The notes beneath the pieces are model-generated. The model was not told the origin of the DNA, did no database searches, and saw only the letters and a list, made by a program, of their open reading frames with translations. Positions 5,547 through 48,622 of a DNA stretch of 64,000 bases are shown here, piece by piece. Numbering within the stretch: the stretch's first letter is position 1; each line of letters starts with the position of its first letter. A program made the position numbers and the translations under genes. Source of the DNA: Micromonospora parva (lineage in GTDB: Bacteria; Actinomycetota; Actinomycetes; Mycobacteriales; Micromonosporaceae); NCBI RefSeq assembly GCF_000718515.1, contig NZ_JNZS01000015.1, positions 62,001 through 126,000 on the forward strand. Direction: 5' to 3'.

Positions 5547-5959
5547 CGCAGCTTCCTATCAATCCGGGAAATCACCTCGTCAAGCCGGACCACCGCCGCC
5601 GCGCAGAGCCGGACAGCTTTCGCCGACCAGTCGGGCAGTTGACCGGTGGCGTTGAACGCCGCCGCGGCCTGATTGACGTTGTTGCCGAACATCACCACGG
5701 CACGACGAGCGGCGAACAACTCGTGCTGCAGATCGCGTAAGTCGCCTGCCGTACCACCGGGTGCCTGAGCGGCGGACGCGGCGGCGACCGCGGCCTTCGC
5801 CGCGTAGCCGGTCGCGGTCAGCTGAGCGAGCGCCGCAGCCGCGTCAATGACGGCCTTCTCCTCGTCGGACAGCCTAAGCAACATCGCGCGCGAACGGGCC
5901 GGCCGGTTGTGGGCACGGTGGCGTGCCTTGCGGCGCGGGGCAGGCTGCTCACTGTCCAT
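5543..5959 (-). CDS. MobC-like relaxosome accessory protein
   Basis: I place the start at the ATG at 5959, giving 138 residues; the frame is open to 6172 but the extra stretch is not protein-like. The N-terminus is very basic (RRKARHRAHNR), followed by a short ribbon-helix-helix-like segment MLLRLSDEEKAVIDAAA and a helical domain with the MobC signature around FGNNVNQAAAAFN. MobC proteins bind the transfer origin and help the relaxase melt it. The four-base overlap with the relaxase start is typical of translational coupling. The transfer origin is expected in the 360 bases upstream, before the divergent recombinase gene. Confidence 0.75.
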   Translation of the reverse strand: MDSEQPAPRRKARHRAHNRPARSRAMLLRLSDEEKAVIDAAAALAQLTATGYAAKAAVAAASAAQAPGGTAGDLRDLQHELFAARRAVVMFGNNVNQAAAAFNATGQLPDWSAKAVRLCAAAVVRLDEVISRIDRKLR

Positions 5960-6317
5960 TGCCGCCACTGTGCGCCCGAAGCGTTGCCGGCGACGTCTGC
6001 GCCAGCGGTTACCGTAGTCGGCCCGGCCGCCGCGACGAGCGCCGCCTACTTCCCATTGCCAATCTGCGGCCGCGCCCGGCCACAGATTGATAAGCAATGG
6101 CCATATCTTGCTCCAACCGGCGCGTGTTCGATCAGATGCGATTACGCGCTGGTAGGCACGCACCTCGAACACCAGGTCGTCAAGCTGGCAACGCTCACTC
6201 CAGGCACCGAGTAACGGGAAACCAACATCGAAGAGCCAGCTTTCGATCTTCGAAAGGCAGGGCTCTGACCTGCGCCTTCACCAGTCCATCGCACCTAACG
6301 CGTGAATCCCGCATCCG

Positions 6318-15694: not shown

Positions 15695-16840
15695 CTACGC
15701 CCTGGGTGACCAACTTGCGGCGTCGCCGAGCACCGCTTCCATCAACTCAGCGGCCTTCCGTTCGCTCTCCGGCAACACGTGGGTGTAGACCTCTCGCGTC
15801 GTGCGGCTGTCGGCGTGACCGAGCCGCCGCTGCATCACGTGTTCGGGAACGCCAGCGTCAGCGCCGGTGGTAGCGGAGGTGTGTCGCGCATCGTGAAGGG
15901 AGATGACGGGAACGCCGGCATCGGCACAGGCCTTCGCCCACTGGTCGGTGAAGTACTTCGGGTAGTACGGCTCACCGTCCTCCCGGCAGAACAGGTAGCC
16001 GCCATCGTGGTACAGGACTCCGGCATCGACCTTCTCCGCATCCTGGCGTGTTCGGTGAGCGTCCAGCTCCGCTACCAGGGCTGGCCCGAGCGCTACCGCC
16101 CGCTTGCTCTTTCCCTTGGGAGACTTCTCGACCACGCCGTTGCTGGTCGTGGTGCGCTGCCAGTGCAGCAACAAGACGCCGCGATCGAGATCAACGCGCG
16201 GCCACTTGAGACCGGCCAACTCTCCACGTCGAGTGCCGACGACGATCGCCAGGACCCAGGCGGCACGTAGCCGGTGGTCGGCGTGGTGCTTGAGGAACTT
16301 CGCTGACTGCGCGGGCGTCCAGACGCCCTTGCGCCCCATCGTTTCCCGCTCGACCTGCCGAGGTTGCCGCACACCGTCGACGTTGACCCCGAGGTCGCTC
16401 AACGCCTTCATCAGGACCCGGTGCACGATCCGGACGGTGGTCGACGACAGCGGGCCGCCGTTCTTGCCACCGCTCTTCAGCAGCTTCTTGTACAGCTCGT
16501 GGATCACTCGCTTGTCGAGGGCGTAGAGCTGCCGCGCGCCGATGTGCGGCACCACGTAGCAGCGCATGATGTCCCGGTAGTTGCTGAGCGTCGTCTCTTG
16601 GACATCCAGCTCGCGCTCGTTGAGCCAGCTCTCCAACTCGGCAGCGACGGTGCCGTCGGCCCCGAGGTCCGCTCCACCGTAGGCGGCGCGGGCGTCCTGC
16701 TCCGCCTTCAGTGCGGCGGCCTGGCTGGGGAACCCCTGCCGCTTGTGCTGGCGGCGCCGCCCGTTGGCGTCGGGTGGGAGGTCGATGATGAAGAACCAGC
16801 GGGTCTGGCCGTTGGCGAGGCGGTAGTTGTAGACAGCCAT
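15695..16840 (-). CDS. Site-specific tyrosine integrase
   Basis: The product is 381 residues, with GGAGG eight bases before ATG 16840. An N-terminal arm-binding-like domain (YNYRLANGQTRWFFIIDLPP, then a basic region) precedes a core-binding domain and the catalytic domain: Arg in VVGTRRGELAGLKW, HDARHTSAT as HxxR, GHADSRTT, and the Tyr in EVYTHV. It should recombine attP with attB. Its 5' end points at a tRNA 3' fragment 120 bases away (16961-16998), the usual place for an attachment site. It is the only integrase near the att-like repeats at 17.0, 33.4 and 40.9 kb and could act on them, which is inference. Confidence 0.9.
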   Translation of the reverse strand: MAVYNYRLANGQTRWFFIIDLPPDANGRRRQHKRQGFPSQAAALKAEQDARAAYGGADLGADGTVAAELESWLNERELDVQETTLSNYRDIMRCYVVPHIGARQLYALDKRVIHELYKKLLKSGGKNGGPLSSTTVRIVHRVLMKALSDLGVNVDGVRQPRQVERETMGRKGVWTPAQSAKFLKHHADHRLRAAWVLAIVVGTRRGELAGLKWPRVDLDRGVLLLHWQRTTTSNGVVEKSPKGKSKRAVALGPALVAELDAHRTRQDAEKVDAGVLYHDGGYLFCREDGEPYYPKYFTDQWAKACADAGVPVISLHDARHTSATTGADAGVPEHVMQRRLGHADSRTTREVYTHVLPESERKAAELMEAVLGDAASWSPRA

Positions 16841-16960: not shown

Positions 16961-16998
16961 CGGGACGGCCGGATTCGAACCGACGACCCCTTGTTACC
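16961..16998 (-). other. 3' half of a tRNA gene at an attachment junction
   Basis: On the minus strand, the bases read GGTAACAAGGGG then GTCGTCGGTTCGAATCC and GGCCGTCCCG. That is the end of an anticodon loop and stem, a variable region, a complete T-arm (GTCGG/CCGGC around TTCGAAT) and an acceptor strand. A GGT at the anticodon position suggests tRNA-Thr. The 5' half is missing: the bases beyond GGTAAC cannot pair with CAAGG. It is therefore a displaced or element-borne tRNA end, as left by integration into a tRNA gene. Confidence 0.65.
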
Positions 16999-17335
16999 AT
17001 CCGTAACCAAATCGAACTTGTCGTTGATTGTCGAGAATTGACGTTGAGCTGCACTGACGCGATCAAACACTGGTCGCTTCTTGTCACTGATCGTCACCGG
17101 TAGACGAGGTTTTTCGGGGGGTAAACGGGGGGTCGCCGACGTGGCAGCACTGGTTCCACCGCGCCCCGCTCCCCCACCGTCGGGGGCGTGCTGTCGCCAG
17201 GAAACAGCGTGCGCCCGCCCGTCGCGACTCGCGTACCGCGAGCAGGGGTTCGTGGCGGTGGGGCGAGACGGACCTTGCCCCACCGCCGATTACCCTCGGC
17301 ACGACTCTCGAGCTCACGCAAATCTAGCGACACCG
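16986..17335 (+). repeat. Att-like repeat, copy 1 (outer junction form)
   Basis: The 13-base core ACCCCTTGTTACC is at 16986-16998. Arm-like repeats TTGTCGTTGATTGTC (17018) and TTGTCACTGATCGTCA (17081) follow, then TCGGGGGGTAAACGGGGGG (17114-17132) and a less conserved stretch ending in GCTCACGCAAATCTAGC (to about 17335). Spacings from core end to arm (20), arm to arm (63) and arm to G-run (33) equal those of copies 2 and 3 exactly. To the left, where copies 2 and 3 carry another arm repeat, this copy has the tRNA 3' half. Confidence 0.75.
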
Positions 17336-28705: not shown

Positions 28706-31700
28706 ATGCCCAAGATCCCCGCCACTAAAGTGGTTCCCGCTCAGGCATCTAGAGCCCCAGTTGAGCAGGAAGGGGTTAGGCCAGAAGGTCCCTCTCGACA
28801 CACCGATGACCTGGTCCGACGCGTTGACGAACTTCGGCGCACGTTTCAGACGGCAAGCGCGCTGCACCTACTCAATGACGTCCTGATGGGGCAGCCGGAA
28901 CCGACCGACGCCCTAGCCGTCGCACACGCTCGGGTGCTGCTTGCTCGGCACCGGCCGGACGACGCCGCTGGAGTGCTTCGTCGCGCATACGAGTTGAATG
29001 GAGGCACGGCTGATGTGTCTGCCTGGCTGATTGCGAGCCTCAGCCGGGGGCACCACTACGTCGCGGCCACGAATCTGGCTGCCGAGGCATCCCAGATTCA
29101 TCCCACGAGCGCACTAGTACGCATCTCGACCGGCCGCCTTTTGATCGACCAGTATCGGTTCGAGGAGTCTGTGCCGTACTTCCAAGAGGCATACACGCTC
29201 GATCGAGATGATCCACGAGCGCTCCGTTGGTTGCTGCATGGGCTACGCCAGACGCGCCGGTTCGACGAGGTCGATACGGTCGCCACCACGATCGGTCTGA
29301 CCGCTGACCCGCCTCGCATCGAGTACGCCCGAAGTCTGCTAGACCGCTACCAGTTCAAGCGGGCACTTGCCGAACTCGACCTGGTCGCCGCCACTCCTGC
29401 AGAGGTGGCCGCCCTACAGGTACGACTGGAGGCGCTACGCGGCCTGCGCCGCCTGGCCGAAGCTGAGCGGTTGGCACACGACGCGATCGGTGAGAGGGAG
29501 GATGACCCTCGGCCCTGGCTCGAACTCGGACACGTCTTTCACGAAGGTCACCGCCACGAAGACGCTCTAGTGGCTTTCGAACGGGCTCATACCATTGACC
29601 CGAGCTCTGCCGACGCGCTTGAGTGGCGCACGACCGAGCTAAGGCGCTTGCGACGCTGGGACGACGCCGAGCGGAGCGCTCACGATGCAATTGCCCGCAG
29701 GCCGGACGCGCCGCTGCTGTACGTTGAACTAAGCTACTTGCACGAGGACCAGCACCTCTTTGAGCGTGCCATGGCGGCCGTCGAGCAAGCCCTTGCCATT
29801 GACCCACGCCTCGTTCCAGCCCTGAGTCAGCGGATCGATGTTCTGCGGCAGCTACGGCGGCTCGACCACGCCGAGCAGGCGGCTCTCCAAGCAATCGACG
29901 TCCGACCCGACTCGACGGTGCTGCGACTGGCTCTCGGCTACGTGTACGACGAGCAGCGCGACTGCGAGCGTGCCTTGACGGCCGCCGAGCAGGCCCTTGC
30001 CATTGACCCACGCTACGTTTGGGCCATTACGGGTCGCATCACGCAGCTTCGGCAACTTCGGCGTTTTTCGACCCACGGCACGAATCGGCCCTCGGCTGGC
30101 GAATTCTCGGCCTACGGCGGCTACGGCGTTTCGAAGAAGCCGAACAGGCCGCGCGCACGGCAGCCGACGCCCGGCCCGACTCCCCGGCCCCGTACCTCCA
30201 TCTCAGCTACATCTACGACGAGCAGCGCGACTGCGAACGTGCCTTGACGGCCGCCGAGCAGGCCCTTGCCATTGACCCACGCTACGTTTGGGCCATTACG
30301 GGTCGCATCACGCAGCTTCGGCAACTTCGGCGTTTTAGCTGCGACGTTTCGAAGAAGCCGAACAGGCCGCGCGCACGGCAGCCGACGCCCGGCCCAACTC
30401 CCCAAACCCGTACCTCCAGCTCAGCTACATCTACGAGGACCAGCACGACTACGAGCGCGGCTTGGCGTCCGCCGAGCAAGCCCTTGCCATCGACCCACGG
30501 CACGAATCGGCCCTGGGCTGGCGGATTTTCGGCCTACGGCGGCTACGGCGTTTCGAAGAAGCCGAACAGGCCGCGCGCACGGCAGCCGACGCCCGGCCCA
30601 ACTCCCCAGACCCGTACCTGCAGCTCAGCTACATCTACGACGATCAGTACGACTACGAACGCGCCTTAACGGCCGTCGAGCAAGCCCTCACCATCGACCC
30701 ACGGCACGAGTGGGCACGGGTTTGGCGGATCACAGAACTACGGCAGCTGCGACGTTTCCAAGAAGCGGAGCAGGCCGCCCGCGAAGCGATCGACGATCAC
30801 CCAGACTCCCCAGCCCTACATGTGGAAGCCAGTGCCGTTCACCGAGACCGACATGACGACGAGCGGGCTCTAGCAGCCGTCGAGCAAGCGCTCACCATTG
30901 ACCCACGGCATGAATGGGCCCTGGTGTGGCGGGTTAGTGGACTACGGCGGCTGAGACGCTACAACGACGCCGAGCAGGCCGCCCGCGAAGCGATTGAGAG
31001 GCGGCCCCAAACGCCCGCGCTATACCTTCAGCTCAGCTACTTGTACGACGATCAGTACGATTACGAGCGGGCCTTGACGGCCGCCGAACAGGCCCTCGCC
31101 ATCGATCCCCGACACCAATGGGCACAGGCTTGGCGTATTACAGAGCTTCGGCAGCTGCGGCGCCTCGACGAGGCTGAGCGGGCCGCCCGCGAGGCGATCG
31201 ACGCCCGCTCCGATTCGCCAGCCCTTCGATTAGAGCTGGCAAGCGTTGCGGAGGACAGGGGACAGTACCGACAAGCCCTCGACTGTGTACAGGGCGCCCT
31301 TGCCCTCGACGCACGCAATGATACGGCGCTCACAGCACGCATCCGGCTACTGCGCCTGTCGCACGACCTTGCCGGCGCGCTAGCCACCGCCGCGAAGGCG
31401 GTCGACACCCGCCCAGACAGTGTCGACCTGCTGAGTGAGTTGGGTCAGGTACACGTTGCTCGGCACGAACATCAGAAAGCTCTTGCCGTGTTCGATCAGG
31501 CCCTGGCCCTGGATCCTGGGCATGTGCAGGTCGTCGAGCGCCGGGTGAACGTACTTCAACAGCTTCTACGCCACTCGGATGCCGAGCAGGCCGCGCAGAT
31601 GGCGTTGAGGCTGCGGCCGAGCGATCAGACGCTGCACCTAAGCCTCGGGCGGGTCTTCGAAGACCGACTACAGACGCGTCAGGCGCTCGCCTGCTACGAG

Positions 31701-33209: not shown

Positions 33210-33341
33210 GAGCATCCCTCGCAAATTCCTGAACCGAGGGTGCTGTTGTACACGGATGGCTTCGCGAATCGCTCCCACGTTGCGGGAGTTGGCCGCTACA
33301 TTCAGCGCCGAGCGCTCGTGGGGGGACGCGCAAATTTGATC

Positions 33342-33790
33342 CCAGGAGAACCTCATGTCGAGCCTCGTTCAAGGCTTGTCATTGCTTGTCAAAACCCCTT
33401 GTTACCGTCCGTAGCTACCCCGACTTTGTCATTGGCCGTCAGAAATAAGCGCTGAGCTGCACAGACACGGCCAGAGACCGATCGCCTCTTGTCACTGTTT
33501 GTCAACAGCAGGTGGGGGTTTTCGGGGGGTAAACGGGGGGCAGAACGACAGGACGTCGCCACGGTCCGACCGCGGCCGGCGCCCTACCATCAGGGTCTCC
33601 CGTCACCAAGAGATCGACGATCCCTCATCCGTCGGGACCCACCTGCTGCAGGCATGGGGGTACGTGTCGGTGGGGCGACGTCCACGAATCCATGATCGCC
33701 CTTCATGGCGAACTACGATTCACGCTCAGATAGCCACATCAGCCGAATGCTGCCGCCGCTGTCCCGGCTCGTGTTCGAGGTATCGCGTGA
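33342..33790 (+). repeat. Att-like repeat, copy 2 (internal junction form)
   Basis: It opens with a block shared with copy 3 (GAACCTCATGTC, then CCTCGTTCAAGG). Arm 1 TTGTCATTGCTTGTCAA is at 33376-33392, core ACCCCTTGTTACC at 33394-33406, arm 2 at 33426 (TTGTCATTGGCCGTCA), arm 3 at 33489 (TTGTCACTGTTTGTCAA), and the G-run at 33522-33540. The right part (about 33650-33790) also matches the partial copy at 53.2 kb. Arms on both sides of the core are what attP, or a junction between two adjacent islands, would look like. Confidence 0.78.
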
Positions 33791-33878: not shown

Positions 33879-34896
33879 ATGACCACGCACGTGCTGACCG
33901 CCGAGCTACCCCAACCGGAGGCGTTGGACCATGCCGCATGGGCAGCAATCCAAGATCCGTTTCAACGACTTCGGTCAGCGGTAGCCGCAAAACGACCGTC
34001 CACTGGTGGTCGGATCGGCCAAGGACCTCGTCGAGGCGACAGCACGCGTCGTGCTCGACGCTCGCGGGCGCACTGCCGGTAGCGGCGAGGAGTTCGACAA
34101 GGTGCTAGGCGATGCACATCGCGCGATAGAGCACCAAGTCGGGCCCGGAGTAGCGGCGGACGCTGCGGTCCGCCAAGCGGCCACTTCAGCCCGCAAGCTA
34201 GCCGGGGTGTTGCGGGAGCTACGCAACACGTACGGCACTGGTCACGGCAGATCCGCCCTGCCGCTTCTTGAAGATGAAATTTTGGAGACCTGTGTCGATG
34301 CCGCACTGCTGTGGACCCGCTGGGCACTGCGGCGGCTACAGTTAGTGCTTCTCGGGTCACTGCAGCCGCTGATCGCCGATTTGCGTAGCGCCTCGTTCAG
34401 CAGGGGATCTCTTGCGACACGGCTTGCGGCTGTTGACCTGCCGCACTTGCAAACTGCCGACCAGCGGCAGCTAGGTGTGGCCGTGGGCCAGCGGGCGTCC
34501 CGCAACACATTCACCGTGCGCGCCGATGGTGTCGAGGCGTGCGCGCAGAGCCAAGACGCGGCTGCTTGGCCCTTGGGCTACCGCGAGGGAGTCGTCGAAG
34601 GACTCTTCCTCGACCAGTTCGGCCAGCTGCACCTCGACGAACAGGCTCGAGCGCCGCGCTTGGCAGTCGAGATCCTCGCCCCCCATCCCGACCGGACCAG
34701 GATTCTGGTCGAGCTCGCCGAACGCATTTTCCGGTCAGCCTGGTCGCAGGACCTCCGCCTGATATGGCGACACGTCGTTACGGAGATGCACCTAGCACAG
34801 CGACTTCTCGGCGACGGGACCGCCGAACAGGTGTGGTCGGCAATCATCGAGCACCTTCAGGCCACCGGCGAGAAGTATGAGGCACTCCAGCAGTAG
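33879..34896 (+). pseudogene. Abi_C-like abortive infection protein with a frameshift
   Basis: The main frame (from about 33985) reads RPLVVGSAKDLVEATARVVL, then VRQAATSARKLAGVLRELRN and TYGTGHGR, the pattern of the abortive infection C-terminal domain (Abi_C). The N-terminal 35 residues lie in another frame, from ATG 33879 to QRLRSAVAAK. Removing one A from the AAAA at 33989-33992 joins them as SAVAANDRPLVVGSAK. So the gene has a +1 frameshift in a homopolymer, from mutation or sequencing error. The C-terminal 200 residues are helical. Abi proteins of this group are phage-resistance proteins, and the neighbour is the methylase/NACHT fusion. Confidence 0.68.
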
Positions 34897-35352: not shown

Positions 35353-38300
35353 ATGGATATCGTGGGCTCCGACCAAGACGCGATCGCGGAGGCAAACATA
35401 GAGCGCACCGAAATCGAGTCGGCGGGTCAGCCGCTGACCCGCGCCATCGACCGTACCCCGCTCGTCCTGATCGCCCCCTCGTACGGCAACCGCGCGACCC
35501 GGCAGCGATTCGCCGACACCCTCGCAGATCCCGTGAACTTCCTCGGCGATGAGCTACACGCCGCGCTGAACGCAGCCGAGGCCCGGGACCTTCTCTCGCG
35601 ACATCCGGATGGTACCGCCCGGTTTTGGGGTGCGCTGCCGAGTCACAACGGGATCATCGACCGGCTGCGGCCGGGCGATCTCATCGTTTTCACAGGTCAG
35701 AACCGCGTACAGGCGATCGGCACCCTGGCCTGCAAGCTGCGCAACCCGGCGTTGGCCGACCTGCTCTGGCCCCCTGATCCGGGCGCTCCGGGCTGGGTGA
35801 ATGTCTACACCGTCGTCAATTTCCGACGGGTCACCGGACCGGACTATCCACTGCTACGGAAATGGGTCGCTTCGAGCGAGCGGGACGTCTTCCAGTCCGC
35901 CCGTGCTCTGACGCCGGAAAAATCCGCTGCTGTACTCGCCGGGCTGACCGACCTCGGCACGTTCAGCGGCCTGCTGGACGTCGGCGACGAACTTGGCCGT
36001 GGGACAACCGGCGCCGCATCCGAGCAGACCCTGACGACACTGGCCGAGTTCGAGCGTCACCTGGGCGCGGCGGTGGAGATACTCGGCAGCCGGAGGCACC
36101 TCGACCTAGACACTAAGTGGTATCTCCTCGGCGTCCTGCTGCTCAAATACGCGTCCGATACGTCCGATTCCAGGCGTGCGCGGCACCTCACCGACGAGTT
36201 CGCTTCAGGCCGGGACAGAAGACCGGTTGCGGCACAGGACGGCAGGACCAGGTCGTATCCCGATGAGCTCGTCGTGCCGGAGCAGGCACGGTGGGACTAC
36301 CTCATGGACCGTGCCTCCATTGATGTCGGGGCCTATCTAAATCAGGCACTTCGGGTCCTCGAACAAGGCAACCAGGCGGCGCTCGGAAACGTCCTGACGC
36401 ACATCGACTTCACCCGAGAAATCGGCGGCGACCGGTTGTCGGACGGGACGCTAAGGGATCTCCTTGTCCACTTCGCGGGACTCTCGCTGGCTCCAGAGAG
36501 CATGCCGCCTGACCTGCTGAAGCAGGGATTTGAATACATCGTCAGAAGGTTCCCGGAGACCGTCTCGTCGAAGAGTGGCGACTTCTACGCGCCCGCCGAT
36601 GTGACCCGGCTGATGATCCGGCTGGTGGATCCCACCGAGAAGACGACGATCTACGATCCCTGCGCCGGGATCGGCGGCATGCTGATCGAGGCCGTCGAAC
36701 ACGTCAAGGCGCGGAGTGGAAGCCTGCCTCGGGTCATCGCCGGCCAGGAGATCAACGGCAGCACCTGGGCGTTGTCGAGGCTGAATCTGTTCATGCACAA
36801 CGTTCCCAGCACCGGTCTCGAACGCGGCGACACCCTGGCGGAGCCAAGGCATGTGCGAGCCGGCGTCCTTGAGCGGTTTGATCGGGTGATCTCAAATCCG
36901 CCCTTCGGAAGTCGAGTCGGCGCAGGCGAGCTGCGTCATCCGGAGCGCTTCCGTTGGGGCTTTCCCGCACAGAACCGGTCCGAGTTGTTGTTCGTGCAGC
37001 ACGCGGTGTCGGTGCTCAGCGCCGACGGGTTGGCAGCGGTGGTGCTGCCGAGAGGCGTGCTGTTCAGGTCCGGTGCTGACCGAAGGATCCGCGCGGCTCT
37101 ACTCGACGACGACGTGATCGAGGCGGTCATCGGGCTTCCCGCGGGGCTCTTCTACCTCACCGGCGTGGCTACGTGCGTGTTGGTGCTGCGCCCACCCGGG
37201 GCCAAGCCCGCCGACCGCGCGGGCCAGATCTTGTTCGCCGACCTTCCGGCCGAGAAGCCCGGCCGCGCTCGCCACCTCGTCCCAGGGCGGGTCGAGGAAC
37301 TACTCGCTGCCTACCGCGCGTTCGAGGACGTCCCAGACTTCGCCAAGGTAGTCGACCGGTCGAACGTGAAGGAAAACAGCGACAACCTTAGCGTCGAGCT
37401 GTACGTGCGCAAGGATTCGTCGGGCCGGGAAGAGACTGGCCTGGCCGAGAGCTGGGAGTCGGGACTTCGAAACCTAGTCCGCGACGGCCGGTACGACGAG
37501 GCGGCGGCCCTGCTCGGCGAGCACGTCGGTCCGGACACCGTGGCCGACGGCGAGACGGACTCCGCGCGATTCGCCCGGCTTAGGATGGAGTTTGGCTTCC
37601 TCCGCCTTCAAGATGGCGACCGGCGGGTTGTCGGCACCATCTGGACACCGATTGCCCAGGCGAACGGCTTCGCCCCCACTCTGTCGAGGGTGACCGCGAG
37701 GACCCAGGACGTGGGCAGCCCCGATCTCCTCTCGGAGGCGGGGCCGGCCGATGATGAATCCGGGGCGTCCGACACCAGGACCGGACGTTCCCCGCAGCAG
37801 TCCGGCGCCGTTCTGGAACAGGCGACCGTCGACCTCTTCGCCCGGCTGTTCCACATCGATCCGGACAACCGCCAGCTGTTGGTGACCCGGCTGCGGAACC
37901 AGCGGCCGGGAACTCAGTACGGCCATGACGTCGCACTGGATTGCAGCGTTGCGGGAAGCCCGACCGTACGGTGCCACGTGGAATGCAAGAATCTGCACCG
38001 CGCGATCACGCTCGGAGACGTCGCCGACAAGCTGATCCAGGAGAGGTTCTACCCGGGCGGGGCAACCGTGGACCATTGGATCTTGATCTCGCCACATGCG
38101 GGTCCCAGCAACGAACTCCGGCAGATGCTCGACGTCTGGGAGCAGAGACAGGAGTACCCGTTCTCGGTTCAGGTTTGGAGTCCAGAGGAGGGGGTCGAAG
38201 GACTCTTCGCCCTTGACCCTGAGGTCTACCAGGCTGTGTACGGCAGGCCCCCAGGTGCCCGGGAACTCGCGATGGTGGAGAGTGCCATCGCTAGCCTCCG

Positions 38301-40812
38301 AAAGAGTCTGGCGCCGCGGCTGCCGATCGACCGGATCTGGCATGCATATCTGGACGACCCACACCGACTCTGTTTCGTGTGGGAGGAATTCCGAGAGTTC
38401 GATGAGCTTTACGACAATCAGGTGCAACTCAGGGTCACTGATGGCAAGGGCGCGCTACTGGAAGGCAGCCTGCTCGACGAGACCCTCACGTGGGTCCACG
38501 GCGAGTCAACCGAGCCGATGCTGCTTCTCGCAGATTTCGGTGAGGGCAAGAGCGTCTTCACCTACACCCTCGCGCGACGGCTCTGCGAGCAGTACCGCTG
38601 GTCACCCGCCACTGGCGTGTTCCCGCTGCGTATCCCGCTGAGGGAGTTCGTGCAGGCCGGCAGTGGCCGCGCCCTGCTGCAGCGGCGGCTCGAAGAACTC
38701 GGGGCGACACTGGACCAGTGGCGCGAGCTCGCACGTCGCGGACGGACCCTCGTGATCCTCGACGGCTTCGACGAAATGACCGCCGACCTATCCCCTGCGG
38801 CGATTACCGACAACCTTCGAAGCATCGGCTCCTGCCTGACCGAGCTCACCGGATCAAAGGTGCTGGTCACGTCTCGACGCCGGACCCTCAGCGTCCGCGA
38901 TTGGGACCGCGTGCTCGACAGGCTGCACGACCCGATGGTCCGCGAAATCGCCTCCGGATCGCGTGACCAGAGGGTCCGCTACCTCGAGCAGTTCGCCAAT
39001 GATGACCGGACCGCCCGGATCCTGGACAACCTGCGCAATCTGTACGATCCCATCGGTCTAGCCGCCAAGCCGCTTTTCCTGCAAATGATCAAAGAAACCC
39101 TCACTGAACTTCCAGACAGCAACCTCAGCGAGCTGATCCTCTACACCACCTACGTGGAGAAGAGCCTCCGGCGAAAGCTAGAGCTGCTAGAGGACGCCAA
39201 CCTATCGCTTACCGGTAGCGAACTGATCGGCAACCTCTTGGCCATCCTTGAGGACATCGCGGTCGAACTGCAAAGATCCAACAAATCCTCCGTCTACCTT
39301 CGCGACTACTCCGCGAACGCCCCTAACGGCATCGCGGCGATGTTGTGGAAGATGAGCGACGATGCTGCGGCTCCGGCGTCGGACATGGTCCGGGCCGACG
39401 GTGACGCTACCGCCAGGATCGGAGTACGTTCGCTGCTCAAAGCCGTACGCGACGACAACCTCGACAGGTGGCCTGTCGACTTCTTTCACCGCTCCATGCG
39501 CGAGTACTTCTTCGCCCGGGCCTTGGTCCGCAGGCTGCGGACCGATCCGCAACGCGCTCGGGAGATCCTCCACGCCACCCCACTCCCCTCCGAGATCGCC
39601 CATTTCGCCGCGGAGATGCTGAGAGGGCAGGGCGACGCAGCACCGCTGAGTCACCTGGAGAGCTTCACGCGCTCCGCGACATTGGGCCTCCCCGAGGCCT
39701 TCCTCGGCGGAAACTCGATCACCCTGCTCTATGCCGCCCGCGGCGAGCTGCCGAACTGCGACTGGTCCGGCCTACGGCTGGACCACGCTCAACTCAGCGG
39801 AGCGAATCTCACGGAAGCTCGATTCGTCAACACCTCCTTACGGAACGCGAACCTCGACAACGCAGACCTGACCCGAGTCGACTTCACCAACGCAGATCTC
39901 GACGGGATCCGACTGGAGGAGACCGCCCGAGTCACCGCACTCACCGCGTTCGATGGCGAGCGGATCGTTGTGGCCTACCAGGACGGTTCACTGCGGCAGT
40001 GGCGATTGCACCCTGGCGGCAATTACGAGAGCCAGATCATCGCTAGGACGGAGCACCCGGTGGAGCGGTTGTATCGGACGCCGCAAGGACGTCTAGCCGC
40101 GATCGGCCCGGGTCTCTTCAGTCTCTACGAGCTTCAAGGTCACTCACTCACGATCGCTTCGCGGTTCGCGACTAAGTCCCGGTTCCGGCTCACCCTGCCA
40201 GGCGAGCACACCGCACTGCTCCTCGAGGAGACGAACGGCGGCCGGACGCGAGCGCTCTGGCTGAGCACCACCGATGCTGGGGTACACGACCACTGGGACG
40301 CCGAGGGAGCAGTCACCTGCTCCGACCAACTCGACGGACGGGCATACGCTGTCGCCACGGACGAACAGGTGAGGGTCGGTCTTCTCGACGACAGAGGTAA
40401 ATGCGAAATTCGGACACTCAGGATCGGTCGTATCAGCTGCCTGGGCCTTAGTCTCAGCCGTAACGGCGACGTGCTCCTAGCGCTGGGGCAGCATGACGGA
40501 CAGGTGCGAGTCGAATCGCTCCCCAGAACTGCCTCCGCTGGTCCTGCAACCACCTTATGGCAGACAGGCCTGCACGGCGGCACGGTCACCTCCGTGGCAT
40601 TTAGCGATCGTGGACAGCTGGTCACGGGGGGCGCCGACCGCACGGTTTGCACCGTGCCGAGCGCTATCGAGGGGCCAGAGCAGCCCGGCCAAGTCGTACG
40701 GCGGCTACACCTCACTCTGCGTTGCGAGGGCGTCAAGGTTGACGGTGTACGCACGGAGCAAGAACAACAGCGCCTCCGGAAGCACGCGGCGGCCATCTTG
40801 ACCGCAGGGTAG
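35353..40812 (+). CDS. DNA methylase / nuclease / NACHT / pentapeptide fusion protein
   Basis: The product is 1,819 residues from ATG 35353 (TTG 35344 and GTG 35362 are alternatives). Domains in order: an N-terminal PUA/EVE-like part (about 25-185; GDLIVFTGQNRVQAIGTLA); an HsdM-type N6-adenine methylase with SAM motif D435PCAGIGG and catalytic N515PPF; a Mrr-like PD-(D/E)xK nuclease with D859, E877 and K879 in VECKN; a NACHT ATPase with P-loop ADFGEGKS (K1066) and Walker B VILDGFDEM (D1137, D1140, E1141); pentapeptide repeats (about 1475-1515); and a WD40/propeller-like tail. It could mark DNA, detect a signal and cleave within one chain. No target-recognition subunit is seen. The frame is intact throughout. 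Domain calls rest on motifs I can see; function is inference. Confidence 0.85.
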   Translation: MDIVGSDQDAIAEANIERTEIESAGQPLTRAIDRTPLVLIAPSYGNRATRQRFADTLADPVNFLGDELHAALNAAEARDLLSRHPDGTARFWGALPSHNGIIDRLRPGDLIVFTGQNRVQAIGTLACKLRNPALADLLWPPDPGAPGWVNVYTVVNFRRVTGPDYPLLRKWVASSERDVFQSARALTPEKSAAVLAGLTDLGTFSGLLDVGDELGRGTTGAASEQTLTTLAEFERHLGAAVEILGSRRHLDLDTKWYLLGVLLLKYASDTSDSRRARHLTDEFASGRDRRPVAAQDGRTRSYPDELVVPEQARWDYLMDRASIDVGAYLNQALRVLEQGNQAALGNVLTHIDFTREIGGDRLSDGTLRDLLVHFAGLSLAPESMPPDLLKQGFEYIVRRFPETVSSKSGDFYAPADVTRLMIRLVDPTEKTTIYDPCAGIGGMLIEAVEHVKARSGSLPRVIAGQEINGSTWALSRLNLFMHNVPSTGLERGDTLAEPRHVRAGVLERFDRVISNPPFGSRVGAGELRHPERFRWGFPAQNRSELLFVQHAVSVLSADGLAAVVLPRGVLFRSGADRRIRAALLDDDVIEAVIGLPAGLFYLTGVATCVLVLRPPGAKPADRAGQILFADLPAEKPGRARHLVPGRVEELLAAYRAFEDVPDFAKVVDRSNVKENSDNLSVELYVRKDSSGREETGLAESWESGLRNLVRDGRYDEAAALLGEHVGPDTVADGETDSARFARLRMEFGFLRLQDGDRRVVGTIWTPIAQANGFAPTLSRVTARTQDVGSPDLLSEAGPADDESGASDTRTGRSPQQSGAVLEQATVDLFARLFHIDPDNRQLLVTRLRNQRPGTQYGHDVALDCSVAGSPTVRCHVECKNLHRAITLGDVADKLIQERFYPGGATVDHWILISPHAGPSNELRQMLDVWEQRQEYPFSVQVWSPEEGVEGLFALDPEVYQAVYGRPPGARELAMVESAIASLRKSLAPRLPIDRIWHAYLDDPHRLCFVWEEFREFDELYDNQVQLRVTDGKGALLEGSLLDETLTWVHGESTEPMLLLADFGEGKSVFTYTLARRLCEQYRWSPATGVFPLRIPLREFVQAGSGRALLQRRLEELGATLDQWRELARRGRTLVILDGFDEMTADLSPAAITDNLRSIGSCLTELTGSKVLVTSRRRTLSVRDWDRVLDRLHDPMVREIASGSRDQRVRYLEQFANDDRTARILDNLRNLYDPIGLAAKPLFLQMIKETLTELPDSNLSELILYTTYVEKSLRRKLELLEDANLSLTGSELIGNLLAILEDIAVELQRSNKSSVYLRDYSANAPNGIAAMLWKMSDDAAAPASDMVRADGDATARIGVRSLLKAVRDDNLDRWPVDFFHRSMREYFFARALVRRLRTDPQRAREILHATPLPSEIAHFAAEMLRGQGDAAPLSHLESFTRSATLGLPEAFLGGNSITLLYAARGELPNCDWSGLRLDHAQLSGANLTEARFVNTSLRNANLDNADLTRVDFTNADLDGIRLEETARVTALTAFDGERIVVAYQDGSLRQWRLHPGGNYESQIIARTEHPVERLYRTPQGRLAAIGPGLFSLYELQGHSLTIASRFATKSRFRLTLPGEHTALLLEETNGGRTRALWLSTTDAGVHDHWDAEGAVTCSDQLDGRAYAVATDEQVRVGLLDDRGKCEIRTLRIGRISCLGLSLSRNGDVLLALGQHDGQVRVESLPRTASAGPATTLWQTGLHGGTVTSVAFSDRGQLVTGGADRTVCTVPSAIEGPEQPGQVVRRLHLTLRCEGVKVDGVRTEQEQQRLRKHAAAILTAG

Positions 40813-40841
40813 CTACCCGAGTAATAACGAGGAGACTTGAA

Positions 40842-41240
40842 CCCAGAAGAACCTCATGTCAAGCCTCGTTCAAGGCTTGTCATTGCTTGTCAAAACCCCT
40901 TGTTACCAAACGTAGCCATCCTGCCCTTGTCACTGACTATCAAGAGTAGTCGTTGAGCTGCGCAGACGTGATCAGGCAATGATCGCCACTTGTCACTGGT
41001 TGTCAACCGTGCGCGGGGATTTTCGGGGGTAAACGGGGGGCCGACAGGGGCGTCGCCAGTCCGCCGCGTCCCGCTCCCCCATCAGCAGAACGCCCGTCAC
41101 CAAGGGAGCAGTGCGCCCCCTACCCATGCGCTACACGCTGGCCGCAGGCATGGGGGGTCGTGTCGGTGGGGCGACCCGACCCATTGCCCCACCGCCGATG
41201 ACGCTCACCGCAACTCTAAAGCTCACGCAAGTCTAGCTGT
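40842..41240 (+). repeat. Att-like repeat, copy 3 (internal junction form)
   Basis: It has the same order as copy 2: shared opening block, arm 1 TTGTCATTGCTTGTCAA at 40877-40893, core ACCCCTTGTTACC at 40895-40907, arm 2 TTGTCACTGACTATCAA at 40927, arm 3 TTGTCACTGGTTGTCAA at 40990, and a G-run from 41023 (one G shorter). The end GCTCACGCAAGTCTAGC matches copy 1. It starts 30 bases after the stop of the fusion gene. Confidence 0.78.
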
Positions 41241-43195: not shown

Positions 43196-45574
43196 TTAGG
43201 TCGATTCCGACGTCGCGGCCAAAGCTGCGTCAAGCTCCGCAGCGTTTTGGAACCGATCGTCGGGTTCACGCCGAGTTGCGGTGGCGATGACGTCACGCAG
43301 GCGCGCCGGCACCGGAAGCGTCGAAGTGTCGATGTCCTCCTGGAGGCGCTTGCTCAGCAGCAGCGCCACGCTGGCTGATTCCCAAGGCACCTTTCCTGTC
43401 GCACAGAAATACAGAACGAGGCCCAGAGAATAGATGTCGGAGCGGTGGTCGGGGGTCCCGCCAGAAATAGTCTCGGGGGCCATGTACATCGGTGTGCCCA
43501 CGAGTTGACCTGCGGCAGTGATATTGCCACGACCCTCTTGCCGTGCGATGCCGAAGTCCACGATGACCGGACCCCGGCGGGGTTCCATAACAATGTTTGA
43601 TGGCTTTAGGTCGATTCGCGCAATCCGCTTTTCGTTCAGGTACGATAAGGCGCTAGCCAGACGCCGCCCAATCTGCACCACCTCGTCAGGTGGCAAGGCG
43701 CCCGACTCGGCGACGACGGATGCCAGATCAGAACCGAGCATGAGCTCCATGATGATCGCCACGCCGCCCTCGTCGATGTCGACGGCGTCGTAGGTGCGAA
43801 CGATCTGCGGGTGTCGCAGCTGCGCGGCAATGTCAGCCTCGCGGCGGAACCGTACGAGGGCGCCCGGGTCGTCCCTGTCGAAGTAGCCGAGGGTTTTGAC
43901 CGCGATGGCCCGCTGCAACTGCCGGTCAAAACCTCGGTAGACGGTGCCCATGCCGCCGCGCCCGATGGCCTCGCGCAACTCGTATCGATTCGCGAGAACC
44001 CGCACTGGCGGCAGTGCCGCACCTCCGGCGCCGGTAGACGTACCGCCGTCGGCCAAGGCGGAGATCTGCAGGGCCGCGCGTTCGGCTTCGTTCGCGGCGG
44101 CGAAGCCGAACAGGGCGCGCCGAATTTCGCTGGACAACTTGAAGATGGCGTCGTTTGCGTCGCCGATGATCGTTGCGGTCGCGTTAGACCGCCGGACGTA
44201 TTCGATGATCTGGTGACGTTGCAGGTGCTCGAGCATTCGAGCGACGCCCGGCTCCGAGATGCCGAGAGCGGGATCGAAATGCCGGGGCTCGCCCTCGGGG
44301 ACTAAGTCCTTCGAGGAGAATGGTTCGCCCTCGCTGCGCAGAACCCAGTCCACAACGTAGTAGGCGCTCAGCTTGCGGCGATCCTCGTCGATGTCGGCGC
44401 TGAACAGTTGGTCCCGCCGTTGCTGCTCTTGTTCTAGGTGCTCGCTAAGGAGCACCTCAAGGTTGGCGTAGAACTGGACGCGCTTGGCGTCGTGTTCCTG
44501 CACGTGCAGCGTCGGGCCGCTCTCTGCCCAGGAGACGAACCCGTTGAACTCCTGCAATAGACGCCGCGGTATGCCCCTTGCCTTGAACTGCAGGTAGTCG
44601 CGGAACTGCTTGAGTTCCGCCGGGTACTCGGTAGTGTCGGCACGCACGACGTCGAGGAGACGGTCGACTGCCGACCAACTGCACGGCACGTACAGCCGCC
44701 ATCCAAAAACACTCTCGTAGATGCTGTTGCCTCGAGCGGCGTCCCTGATGGCATGGTCGTGCAGGTCCGGCCCGGCCACAACGAGAAAGTGAACACCCGG
44801 CATGGTCAGGACGTTCTTGACGCCGCCAAGGATTTTCTCGATCACCTCAAGCCCTGCATCGGCGCTGGTCAACTTGTCCGCCTCGTCGAGCACGACAACC
44901 AGCCGTATCCGGGCCTTGGTGGGCTTGGACCACGGCTGCAGCCACCGACGCCACCTTGGCAACGGCACGGTCACGGAGCCACTACGGCGCAGCAGCGACA
45001 CAATCCTGATGATGTCGTGCTCGACATCGGTCTCCGAGTAAGCGAGAAACTGGGCTTCGGTGGCCAGGGACCGGGTGCGCTTCGTGGTCGTCACGACCTT
45101 GGGCAGGGGAACCTTCACGATCCGACCGTTTGAAGCCTCGACATTGACGCCCCGCTCGGTTGCTTCCGACCGTGTCTGCTTGAACGCCAGCGACGTGCGC
45201 ATGTAGGCCACCAGCAGGGACTGCTGCACGTCGGCAGGCAATCGCGACAGCAGGCCACGGTCGTGGAGACTTTCGAACACACGCCGGGTCACCGCGAACA
45301 GCAGCCGATCAATGTCGGTCGACCGGGCCACACTCAGCACCACCGGCACCACGAGATCATCCTCGTCGCCCTGCGACAACTCGTTGAGCGCGCGCAGGAC
45401 CAGTGTCGTCTTGCCAACCCCGCGGAAGCCGGTGACGAGGAAAGCGCCGCCGTGGGAATGGATGATACGAGACCGTAACCCCTCCACCAGGCTCGCGTTG
45501 CCCAGCATCGGCAGAGCGTCATCATCGCCCTGAAGTGGCTCGTGAACGAACCGGAAGGAGGTCGTAAGCGGCAT
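43196..45574 (-). CDS. ATPase / Ser-Thr protein kinase fusion
   Basis: The product is 792 residues from ATG 45574; the frame is open to 45643. The N-terminal part is a P-loop ATPase: GFRGVGKTT (Lys 55) and Walker B LVVVLDEADKL, with a following helical and winged-helix-like region (LRSEGEPFSSKDLVPEG to QRHQIIEYVRRS). The C-terminal 265 residues are a Hanks-type kinase: GRGGMGTVYRG, AIAVK, IVDFGIA, and the activation segment GTPMYMAPE. The catalytic loop reads RIDLKPSN, so the His and Arg of HRD are changed while the Asp is kept. An ATPase switch coupled to a kinase suggests signalling or abortive defence. No close system is known to me. Confidence 0.85.
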   Translation of the reverse strand: MPLTTSFRFVHEPLQGDDDALPMLGNASLVEGLRSRIIHSHGGAFLVTGFRGVGKTTLVLRALNELSQGDEDDLVVPVVLSVARSTDIDRLLFAVTRRVFESLHDRGLLSRLPADVQQSLLVAYMRTSLAFKQTRSEATERGVNVEASNGRIVKVPLPKVVTTTKRTRSLATEAQFLAYSETDVEHDIIRIVSLLRRSGSVTVPLPRWRRWLQPWSKPTKARIRLVVVLDEADKLTSADAGLEVIEKILGGVKNVLTMPGVHFLVVAGPDLHDHAIRDAARGNSIYESVFGWRLYVPCSWSAVDRLLDVVRADTTEYPAELKQFRDYLQFKARGIPRRLLQEFNGFVSWAESGPTLHVQEHDAKRVQFYANLEVLLSEHLEQEQQRRDQLFSADIDEDRRKLSAYYVVDWVLRSEGEPFSSKDLVPEGEPRHFDPALGISEPGVARMLEHLQRHQIIEYVRRSNATATIIGDANDAIFKLSSEIRRALFGFAAANEAERAALQISALADGGTSTGAGGAALPPVRVLANRYELREAIGRGGMGTVYRGFDRQLQRAIAVKTLGYFDRDDPGALVRFRREADIAAQLRHPQIVRTYDAVDIDEGGVAIIMELMLGSDLASVVAESGALPPDEVVQIGRRLASALSYLNEKRIARIDLKPSNIVMEPRRGPVIVDFGIARQEGRGNITAAGQLVGTPMYMAPETISGGTPDHRSDIYSLGLVLYFCATGKVPWESASVALLLSKRLQEDIDTSTLPVPARLRDVIATATRREPDDRFQNAAELDAALAATSEST

Positions 45575-45773
45575 GACCAGCAAGGGCCCACTCCCCGTTA
45601 GTGCGTAAGCCGCCGGATGACCTTCGCCGCCGGCACCAGCCACACGTCCACACAGCGCTGGCTCTGGCAGTACACATCCGGCTACGGCAAGTCGTCAACG
45701 ATGTGGCGCAGCTTTGACATGGCCCCGCCGCACGTGCTGTGGCGAGGTTCGCCCGGCTTGCCGGAGGGTTGGT

Positions 45774-45935: not shown

Positions 45936-46536
45936 CCGCCTCATCGGGGCTCCGCCAAGAGTTGCGGTAGACAGCTCACACCGCGGACCCCGGCGGCGCT
46001 CTGGACGATCGCGTAGATTCTCGCCGGCCAAGCCTTCGATGAGTTCGACTGAATGGACCCGGCCGCTGAGTTTCCGAGGGTCGCGTTTGACCACCACGTT
46101 CGGCAGGGTGACCGGAACCGGTGGATCCGCGCTCGTCGGGAACCGCCAATGCGTCATCTCCGGCCGGCCCGCCGGCAGCAACGGCGCGGCAGTTCGAAGA
46201 GGCGGTTCGTCTACTCCGCGCCGTACTCGTCCCAGGCTTCCCTCGTCAGGAGCGACCAGCCACGGGCAGCGAGCGCTTTCACCTCGACGAACGCGCCGGA
46301 CGCGATCAGCACCGCAGACCCGTTCTGCCATTTCGTCGCTGAGCACGGTCAATCAAGCGTTTCGGTCGACGCCGCGCGGCGGATGATCCCAGAAGAACGT
46401 GATGATCATGCCGTAATCCACAGGCGCCGAGTTATCCACAGATGGTGCCGCTGCGGGTTGAGCGGCTGAACGTGCCGGCTGAGGTACTCCGCAGGCGGCG
46501 ACGCGACGTCGCATCGACTGGTAAGGGAGAGCAGCC
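45936..46536. other. Gene-poor stretch with two DnaA-box-like sites
   Basis: No gene is supported. TAATCCACA at 46414-46422 and TTATCCACA at 46432-46440 lie 18 bases apart in the same orientation; the second equals the E. coli DnaA box. Two boxes alone do not make an origin. GGGAGA at 46525-46530 serves the next gene. Confidence 0.35.
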
Positions 46537-46695
46537 ATGACTTGGGGTGGACGCAGCCAATCACGACGCACGGACTGGCAGACAGCAGCGGACGGCCTCG
46601 CCGGTGTTACTGGTCTCCTCGGCGCAGTGGCGGCGCTCGTCGCGGCGGTTGCGGGGCTACTGACGGCTGCAGCCACGCTGCTGGTAAATCGCTGA
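46537..46695 (+). CDS. Tiny membrane protein
   Basis: The product is 52 residues from ATG 46537, with GGGAGA seven bases upstream. A polar N-terminus (RSQSRRTDWQTAADG) is followed by one long hydrophobic Ala/Leu/Val helix of about 30 residues ending in VNR. It could be a holin-like or toxin-like peptide. The stop TGA overlaps the ATG of the next gene (TGATG), so they are translated together. Confidence 0.6.
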   Translation: MTWGGRSQSRRTDWQTAADGLAGVTGLLGAVAALVAAVAGLLTAAATLLVNR

Positions 46696-46928
46696 TGCCC
46701 GCGGTCGAGGCTTGGCTGCTCGGCGGACCGGCCGACGGTCGCATCACTTCGATCGAGGTCGACGAGAACGGGTTCCTTCCGCAGCTCCTCATCCTGCCGC
46801 AGAGCGGCGCCTACCTCGGCATCCGCGAGCACCCCAGCCCGCCCGCGCAGTACCGCTATGTTCGTTGTGACGGCGAGGACGATCCGCCAACCTTCCAGTA
46901 CGACGGGCCGCTCCCCCACGACGAGTGA
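46695..46928 (+). CDS. Small hypothetical protein, partner of the tiny membrane protein
   Basis: The product is 77 residues from ATG 46695. It opens PAVEAWLLGGPADGRITSIE and ends with QYRYVRCDGEDDPPTFQYDG. It is a compact beta-rich pattern that I have seen annotated as hypothetical in actinobacterial genomes and phages. There are no membrane segments. Translational coupling suggests a joint role with the upstream peptide, possibly as an antidote, which is speculation. Confidence 0.62.
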   Translation: MPAVEAWLLGGPADGRITSIEVDENGFLPQLLILPQSGAYLGIREHPSPPAQYRYVRCDGEDDPPTFQYDGPLPHDE

Positions 46929-47358
46929 CGTCAGCGCGGGTAGCCAGCACACCGAGGTGCGGCCATTTCGGACCACAGAACGGTCGGCACAGCCCCATCC
47001 GGGTCAACCGGTTACCCCACGCCGGCCGCGATTCGGACGTTCGTACGATGCGCTGGTGGCGGACGTGGCGGGGCGCTGGTGGAGCGGGATTTGGGGGCGT
47101 CTGGGCCGCCGGGATGTGTGGTTGACCCGCCAGGTCAGGTGAAAGGTCACCGCCTGCGCCGGAGATAGCGAAAGCGGCCCGGCACTGCGGTGGGAGTTCG
47201 ACACCGAGGACGAGGCCCTCGCCATGGTCAAGCGCCTTCTCGCCGCCGGCGCGGGCGGCCAGTGGCGCAAGCAGCCCGCCCGCCGCCTCAGCAGGCGTAG
47301 CGTCCGGCTTGCGGTCTGCGACCCCGAAGGGGTGCGAACCGCAAGCCGGGCATCGTGG
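46929..47358. other. Gene-poor stretch with a coding relic
   Basis: A plus-strand relic at about 47170-47280 reads RWEFDTEDEALAMVKRLLAA, a fragment of a small actinobacterial protein, but its upstream frame meets a stop and no start is available. The inverted repeat GCAAGCCGGACG-type sequences near 47300-47355 around ACCCCGAAGGGGT may terminate the nuclease gene that ends at 47359. Confidence 0.35.
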
Positions 47359-48024
47359 TCAGGAGGCGCAGGTGTTGAGCATGCTCTGCAGGGCGGACTT
47401 CTCTGACGTCTGCAGGGTGAGGCTCCAGTTGTACTTCACGGTGATCCACATTTTGCTGTAAGTGCACCGGTACGACGACAGGGGCGGCTGCCAGGTCGAG
47501 GGGTCCTGGTCGCCCTTGGACTGGTTGACGTTGTCCGTCACGGCGATCAGCTGCGGGCGGCTCAGGTCGTTGGCGAAGCTCTGCCGACGGCTGGTCGTCC
47601 ACGAGTTGGCGCCGGAGCGCCATGCCTCGGCGAGGGGGACGACGTGGTCGATGTCGACGTCGGAGGCGGCCGTCCAGGTGGCGCCGTCGTACGGGCTGTA
47701 CCAGCGGCCTGATGTGGCCGCGCAGGCGCTGTCGACGACGACGGAGGTGCCGTCGCGTTTGAGGACCTGTTCGCGGGTGTTGCAGCTTCCGCTGATGGTG
47801 ATCCAGTGCGGGAACAGGTCGCGCGAGTAGCCGCTGGTCGAGCCTTGGGTTGCCACGGTCAGGGCGTTGAGCTGTGACTGCGCCGTCGCCTTAGAGGGGA
47901 TTCCGGGAGGTGTGGCCGACGCCGACTGCGCGTTAACACCGACCAGACCGGCGGCAGCAAGGACGGCTGCGGCGACGTAGCGCACGGCGCGCGGAAAATC
48001 AGCAGGGGCTTGGGATATCGGCAT
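47359..48024 (-). CDS. Secreted HNH endonuclease (DUF1524/GmrSD C-terminal type)
   Basis: The product is 221 residues from ATG 48024, with GAGGAGG six bases upstream. An N-terminal signal peptide is clear: basic start, hydrophobic AAAVLAAAGLVGVNA and a cleavage-like ASA. The nuclease core is SDVDIDHVVPLAEAWRSG, then ANDLSRPQLIAVTDNVNQSKGD, with the DHV metal/general-base His and the distal Asn-Lys typical of HNH/His-Me finger enzymes. It is expected to degrade extracellular DNA or RNA, unlike the intracellular defence nucleases around it. It is a single-gene unit. Confidence 0.85.
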   Translation of the reverse strand: MPISQAPADFPRAVRYVAAAVLAAAGLVGVNAQSASATPPGIPSKATAQSQLNALTVATQGSTSGYSRDLFPHWITISGSCNTREQVLKRDGTSVVVDSACAATSGRWYSPYDGATWTAASDVDIDHVVPLAEAWRSGANSWTTSRRQSFANDLSRPQLIAVTDNVNQSKGDQDPSTWQPPLSSYRCTYSKMWITVKYNWSLTLQTSEKSALQSMLNTCAS

Positions 48025-48622
48025 GGCGGCCTCCTCGACGTTGGTGGATGGCAACCGTCCCTGACCATCATGTCCATCAATGGGCTCGCTTGTGAAGGGG
48101 TGGCGAACCGGCCACGAAGGTCTCAGAGCTGAGACCTCGCCCATTGAAGGCACCCATCGACACTCTCTGCCGGCAGACTCGTGGCGGAGCTCGCTGGCTG
48201 TTGAAGGTCTCGGCGCGACTGCGATCGGCGTTGGTGGACCTTTCGAACGGCGGTAGGGGTGCACTCCTACTTGGCTGGGGGCCTTCTGCGGGCCGTTGCC
48301 GGCACCGGCCCGACCAGCAGAACTGATGCCTCCCGGCAGCGTGTGCTCGCATGGTCGACAGCGGCATCGGTCGAACTGCTCGCTTGGGGGTGAGCGAGGG
48401 CTACCAGCAGGCCGATGGGAACCGGCGGCCCGACAAGGGGGACTCGGGCGGCCCTCAAGATCACCGGCGGCAACGAGAGCAACACTCCGCGTGTCGCGGC
48501 TTCTCCACGTTCCCGGCGGCGTAAATTGCATACGTCTGATCGCCCAGGGCAGGTTGGGAGTTGCGGACGGCAAGTGCATACCGCGTCTTGCTACCCCTTA
48601 TAGACATAGGAGGAGCGCACTC
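48025..48622. other. Gene-poor stretch
   Basis: I see no gene here. Open frames are Arg/Pro/Ser-rich shadows. AGGAGG at about 48608-48613 is the ribosome binding site of the gene at 48623. Confidence 0.4.

Follow-up and report, generated by a model that had tools for sequence, protein, structure and literature searches.

What kind of protein joins, in a single chain, a base-reader fold, a type I methylase module, a nuclease, a NACHT ATPase, pentapeptide repeats and a propeller, and is it a restriction enzyme? This question is raised by the gene of P0001, located at 35353..40812 on the + strand of the window, the 64,000-nucleotide stretch of Micromonospora parva DNA analyzed here. A preliminary description, made from the sequence alone, had taken the product for a restriction-modification enzyme merged with an NLR-like switch. 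On checking sequence and translation, the frame was found open across 1,819 codons, with a start that P0002 supports; all the modules claimed in that description lie in this one frame and every motif that it named is present. A search for the same order in other proteins retrieved P0002, P0003, P0004 and P0006, which keep the P0001 order of modules at 56-84% identity and rule out the suspicion that the chain might be a fusion artefact. The genome of origin (7.1 Mb in 87 contigs) holds one copy of the gene, and the sole other match to P0001 there was the methylase part of another gene.

The effector domain of P0001 precedes the NTPase and the repeats are C-terminal. By its conserved D...ExK residues, the effector reads as a Mrr-like PD-(D/E)xK nuclease (37807..38277, + strand, residues 819-975) with the triad D859 (37927-37929), E877 (37981-37983) and K879 (37987-37989). 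The NACHT STAND NTPase (38524..39003, + strand, residues 1058-1217, above the Pfam cut-off) carries the Walker A motif ADFGEGKS (K1066) and the Walker B motif VILDGFDEM (D1137). Behind it come a mostly helical region with an HRSMREYF motif (39043..39744, + strand, residues 1231-1464), pentapeptide repeats (39745..39927, + strand, residues 1465-1525, by Pfam at 1489-1523) and a WD40-type beta-propeller (39922..40686, + strand, residues 1524-1778, with a Pfam WD40 repeat at 1741-1766), one match of which was a 7-bladed design. Among the matches listed, both NACHT residues, K1066 and D1137, are kept in 134 out of 134 core proteins, and the full D-E-K triad in 122, the other 12 being non-canonical or uncovered at these positions.

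Concerning the nuclease, a weak Mrr_cat match was obtained in 3/16, and a profile of this region searched against PDB sequences returned nothing at E 1. The order of strands and helices in the structural model of the region fits, but pLDDT is 56-68 near D859. Structure searches with the whole core gave lists filled by propellers, G-beta and NLRs, uninformative on the nuclease fold. Their top Foldseek matches included Apaf-1 (E 1e-12), NOD2, NLRC4 and Avs4 (8dgf, E 1.2e-9, rank 34), with TM-scores so low over the multi-domain model (TMq 0.15-0.26) that the likeness is one of domains. On these model-based matches, the C-terminal 1,100 residues are probably best read as an NLR-like gate on a nuclease, as had been proposed beforehand. 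A further core homolog, P0070, shows R, I and F in place of the nuclease D, E and K and keeps the NACHT residues; its sequence suggests a receptor whose effector is dead or has been replaced.

This core of nuclease, NACHT, pentapeptides and propeller is constant behind many different N-terminal guests. With labels assigned by hand from precomputed Pfam lists (N-terminal coordinates Pfam-checked for 17 proteins), with one of the two listings of relatives holding the best 120 of 286 matches and with the weak or partial matches P0082-P0095 excluded, the guests of the 134 core proteins among the matches listed were an N6 methylase (16), HsdR (14), IF2_N (11), a kinase (7), Pup (7), CHAT (6), a C5 methylase (5), TIR (5) and Rho_N (4). 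Another 16 had a guest lacking Pfam domains and 10 were truncated or bare; many of the examples are metagenome gene calls on single contigs. Rare or single guests among the same matches included GyrB (P0249), RelA/SpoT (P0271), Cys-tRNA-synthetase-like (P0056), DAHP-synthase-like (P0225), tubulin-like and CDC48_N (P0253) domains, proteases and HTH regulators. In P0244 the core is joined to CSD/Rho_N/GntR domains.

On a core tree (a quick build with long-branch warnings, from which P0011 was left out), the 100 labelled rows, in 25 classes, called for at least 42 guest changes. This count does not include P0028, labelled HsdR by eye, nor the label 'STANDdup', which is unreliable because its Pfam hits can fall on the core NACHT. 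Single origins would give a minimum of 24 changes and 30 shuffles of the labels gave 71-82, so that guests appear to have been swapped many times and yet to have kept a lineage signal.

Judging from their motifs, several guest classes seem to have lost catalysis while the core did not. The Walker A Lys and the DEAH Asp are lost in eight of the ten HsdR guests that cover them and intact in P0030 and P0046; a single change on the tree could explain this decay, though the replacing residues differ. Both C5 guests that cover the PCQ and ENV motifs (P0015 and P0018) have lost them, and the remaining three comprise the C-terminal part only. As for the N6 guests, motif IV is without its aromatic in 5/16 and keeps it in 11/16, P0001 included. 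By eye, the catalytic motifs are missing from the CysRS-like guest of P0056 and the DAHPS-like guest of P0225, and the GyrB and Rel guests seem intact; an HRD-type motif is present in five of the seven kinase guests.

The guest of P0001 itself begins with residues 34-206 (35452..35970, + strand), a base-reader fold of the PUA superfamily closest to the TgMcrB N-domain or YTH. The earlier PUA/EVE-like assignment holds as to the PUA superfamily and fails as to a plain EVE, since in P0122 the EVE domain (49-182) precedes a separate region (201-366) that matches the P0001 reader. W92, W139 and W148, candidates for the aromatics of a YTH-type cage, correspond to aromatic residues in 93, 92 and 93 of 93 reader homologs, respectively. 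Reader identity to P0001 is 94% in P0002, 82% in P0003, 77% in P0004, 89% in P0005, 69% in P0006 and 66% in P0011, close to the values for nuclease and NACHT in these proteins; the methylase domain, at 82, 77 and 67% in the first three, absent from P0005, and at 51 and 48% in the last two, drifts faster. Within the guest, it is the reader that seems to matter most. A standalone actinobacterial family (L024 47-1357, L025 6222-8012 and most of P0099-P0209) combines a variable front domain (EVE, ScoMcrA_N, MrcB_N or helicase), a YTH-like domain and an EAK nuclease-like C-terminal domain, a make-up that points to a family of type IV restriction enzymes unrecognised by Pfam.

The second part of the guest, a type I HsdM-like N6-adenine methylase module (36019..37422, + strand, residues 223-690), was recognised by Pfam (HsdM_N at 252-374, N6_Mtase at 387-688) and by its closest solved structure, PacII (7vru_A, E 5.7e-64). 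Its HsdM domain has an intact SAM motif (motif I, DPCAGIGG, 36655..36678, + strand, residues 435-442) and an intact motif IV (NPPF, 36895..36906, + strand, residues 515-518), the latter being NPPF also in P0002, P0003, P0004 and P0006 and DPPF in P0011, with motif I slightly varied. PacII M1 makes m6A using NPPF (PMC9613975). Outside the core family, the nearest M-type relative is an 879-aa ORF at L028 7242-9881 (G056; 41% identity), in which 341 residues unlike the NACHT core follow the methylase.

Are these restriction parts a working system? The methylase of P0001 runs directly into the receptor core through a helical segment (37423..37722, + strand, residues 691-790), where the different guest classes start to be homologous to the constant core; the conserved core segment begins at residue 699. 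In comparison with ten standalone M-type ORFs of the examined loci (shorter than 700 aa and aligning to position 670 or beyond), of which eight extend 40-44 residues past the point matching residue 690 and two extend 224 and 234, P0001 lacks the S-binding C-terminal tail of M. In PacII (M1M2S), M no longer assembles with S once its C-terminal tails are removed (PMC9613975). The genome of origin, listed as 100% complete, gave no match to HsdS (PF01420) or HsdR (PF04313), each of which was positive in 9 of 14 control genomes, and it contains only one further N6 methylase. P0005 (from a single metagenome contig, seven member sequences) keeps the reader and the core (82% identical in the nuclease) and is missing the methylase, its alignment to P0001 covering 0 of 157 positions of HsdM_N and 12 of 304 of the methylase; on the core tree it falls within the group of close P0001 relatives, with P0003 next to it (support 93). 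The absent tail, the lack of HsdS and HsdR matches, P0005 and the many non-methylase guests led us to reject the working type I restriction-modification enzyme of the preliminary description. Since the same core carries so many guests other than methylases, its nuclease is not generally restrained by a cognate methylase, and since relatives have many other borrowed domains at the same place, the comparison suggests that the restriction parts act as a sensor or bait.

We thus read P0001, with a probability of about 0.58, as a bacterial NLR-type STAND (NACHT) immune receptor with a PD-(D/E)xK DNase effector, similar to the NLRs of animals and plants, and with an exchangeable sensor or bait guest at its N-terminus. 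At rest, the NACHT would keep the nuclease domains apart and inactive. The trigger would be an encounter of the guest, the YTH-like reader plus the type I M subunit, with a ligand, and two candidates fit: 1) modified or methylation-mismatched phage DNA, met by the YTH-like domain, and 2) a phage protein directed against restriction enzymes, which binds the type I methylase. The ligand would bring about nucleotide exchange and oligomerisation of the NACHT, the nuclease domains would be brought together, DNA would be cut and the infected cell would die. The propeller and the pentapeptides may form another sensing surface, less variable than the first, or serve as a lid for autoinhibition. What the guest of P0001 points to as the thing watched is DNA modification or restriction. 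A trigger of the anti-restriction kind would fit the binding of Ocr and ArdA to PacII M1M2S (PMC9613975) and the sensing of such phage proteins by Prr, PARIS and Ronin, which use restriction-like parts or DNA-mimic binders to that end (PMC12409349). A search of plasmids returned eight weak matches in the NACHT region and one of viral contigs six weak matches; no phage link was found.

A narrower form of this receptor reading, possible and held only tentatively, is that of bacterial NLRs with integrated decoys: the nuclease-NACHT would repeatedly capture host-like proteins that phages may target (restriction subunits, methylases, gyrase B, Rel, IF2, Rho, Pup, tRNA-synthetase-like proteins), many of them losing catalysis, and display them as bait. 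The bait of P0001 would be the type I M subunit, and a phage anti-restriction protein, for instance a DNA mimic like Ocr or ArdA, would set off the nuclease in the very act of evading restriction. Counter to bait, the M module of P0001 keeps motif I and NPPF, and some other guests look intact. Counter to any N-terminal sensor, the C-terminus of the P0001 type is conserved, whereas the sensor of bNACHT proteins is described as C-terminal (PMC12169576).

The kept motifs of the M module would also fit self-marking restriction in one chain, in which the methylase writes m6A, the YTH-like domain reads it as self and DNA lacking the mark makes the NACHT free the nuclease. Within the guest, conservation is highest in the reader. 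The reader fold resembles a domain that has been described as binding m6A, so that the same mark could serve writer and reader. We nevertheless find this explanation doubtful, because without an HsdS match in the genome and without an S-binding tail there is no known means of site choice, P0005 has the reader and the nuclease without the writer, and the same nuclease is fused to guests devoid of any methylase.

P0005, with its reader and no methylase, agrees with a type IV-like receptor, whose reader would set off the NACHT-nuclease on meeting m6A, or a base modified in some other way, in DNA entering the cell, the M module only helping to bind DNA or SAM. The conserved reader aromatics agree with this, and standalone relatives pair the reader with an EAK nuclease-like motif (by eye) or a Shedu nuclease, and also with EVE, MrcB_N and Schlafen-type helicase domains, as in type IV systems. 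However, an m6A trigger fused to an intact m6A writer would amount to self-harm unless the writer is idle, and HsdM guests with no reader match exist (P0008, P0009, P0010, P0016 and P0040). Moreover, the PDB title of 6p0g names m5C DNA, while papers citing that work, in the portions available, call the TgMcrB-type domain an m6A reader. All in all, we consider this explanation rather improbable.

The N-terminal modules might instead be additional effectors deployed with the nuclease. TIR, CHAT, kinase, trypsin and caspase guests, which with PNPase make up 21/134 among the matches listed, could be such extra effectors, domains of these kinds being described as effectors in related conflict systems (PMC7159879 and PMC8195603). 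Extended to the guests in general this is quite unlikely, as no effector activity is apparent for HsdR motors and C5 methylases that are dead, nor for Pup, IF2_N, Rho_N and GyrB fragments. That the guests are functionless fusion noise or gene-calling artefacts is hardly credible in spite of the many single metagenome contigs, for the four relatives of identical order have readers 69-94% identical to that of P0001, and guests of the N6, HsdR, Pup, Rho_N and protease classes occur in named isolate genomes.

The P0001 gene lies between two copies of a 214-nt att-like direct repeat (33326..33539 and 40827..41040, both + strand), the right one 14 bases past its stop codon; the copies are 79-81% identical and TTGTCA-rich. 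An upstream ORF of 296 aa with an Abi_C domain (34006..34896, + strand) is inside the same repeat-bounded segment, and a third, partial copy (16986-17131) lies immediately upstream of the gene for a tyrosine integrase (15695-16840, minus strand). Matches to the repeat, many partial, were found in 76/160 Micromonospora genomes, including this one, often as same-strand arrays with members several kb apart (e.g. five in G130:C1 2793146-2841851), these copy numbers being lower bounds as about five candidates at most were scored per genome. A remnant of the P0001 gene tail (82%) adjoins one such repeat in G130. The repeat-bounded region has the look of an integrative island that grows by accretion and exchanges defence cassettes, with a putative att role for the repeat, which is possibly the cassette-accretion element of a defence hotspot.

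Elsewhere in the window, 4113-7454 holds parts of an integrative mobile element: relaxase-like (4113-5546) and NikA-like (5543-6172) ORFs, both scoring below the Pfam threshold, and another integrase of the phage type (6318-7454). Near the P0001 gene, an 815-aa fusion of an AAA-ATPase and a Ser/Thr kinase (43196-45643, minus strand) scores in its kinase part against the PD-T4-6 and MADS6 defence models. Upstream of the cassette, a TPR-coding region holds an array (29597-31166) of a repeat unit of about 204 nt, its frames apparently broken into several ORFs.

The nuclease-NACHT receptor is seen mostly in actinobacteria. Its core was present in 7/354 genomes of the family, in 3/397 of the order (one being a tail remnant) and in 1/396 of the phylum, the genome of origin; a scan of genome contigs with a single protein as query gave two loci. 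In M. trifolii NIE79 the gene copy (L022 7883-13356) is interrupted in the post-NACHT region, a 1,279-aa ORF reaching residue 1281 and residues 1296-1813 following in another frame, which could be a natural inactivation, a split gene or a sequencing error. An 82% identical flank, which overlaps a GmrSD_C-type ORF (47359-48579) in the window, lies on opposite sides of the gene in the two species (window 46364-48118, L022 4919-6683) and may mark a shared insertion hotspot.

How does P0001 compare with known systems? Nuclease-NACHT defence proteins such as bNACHT25, type I M subunits, YTH-like readers and, in principle, constant-plus-variable conflict proteins are already known. Close in design are bNACHT25 and bNACHT32 (clade 6), which like P0001 have an N-terminal PD-(D/E)xK DNase and a NACHT in one chain, degrade DNA upon phage infection and lose defence when the nuclease is mutated (PMC12169576, in the part available). 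That part describes no restriction-derived guest such as P0001 has, and a comparison by description sets their helical NCH1 C-terminus against the pentapeptides and WD40-type propeller of P0001. Ronin, PARIS and Prr employ separate toxin proteins in the accessible account, while P0001 is one NLR-like chain with putative sensing. Ternary and TRADD-N conflict systems, found in multicellular bacteria, also join constant modules with fast-varying domains, REase, NACHT, pentapeptide and propeller among them (PMC7159879 and PMC8195603); in the portions seen, none has a REase-NACHT core with HsdM, a YTH-like reader or a C5 methylase as guest. The TgMcrB N-domain, from what is available of its description, is fused to a McrB homolog, and the reader of P0001 to a methylase module and a NACHT-nuclease. 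The M1M2S complex of PacII, a non-canonical type I methyltransferase and the best solved relative of the M module, shares NPPF in its m6A-type M1 (in the part of its description available); in contrast, P0001 has no S subunit and no C-terminal tail and is fused to a reader and a receptor. In the open-licence PMC literature, as far as accessible, we found no description of the P0001 architecture or of integrated decoys in bacterial NACHT proteins, and within that scope neither the joined chain, nor a REase-NACHT core that exchanges catalytically decaying guests, nor a reading as integrated decoys turned up.

The STAND NTPases Apaf-1, NOD2, NLRC4 and Avs4 have, as P0001, an NTPase switch with a repeat C-terminus, to which P0001 adds a nuclease effector and an enzyme-like N-terminal guest. 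Some plant NLRs carry integrated domains, and such integrated decoys are a key concept of plant NLR immunity. By analogy, the P0001 family would resemble them in its constant receptor with exchangeable captured host-like domains, many of which were found on this one receptor, some of them decayed. It differs in being bacterial, in having the guest N-terminal to the effector and in that effector binding is only putative; such a family would be an independent bacterial case. If the decoy reading is true, each guest would name a possible phage target. The variety of guests makes the question of what triggers bacterial NLRs testable one guest at a time, and these natural chimeras offer a way to ask how a NACHT gates a nuclease.
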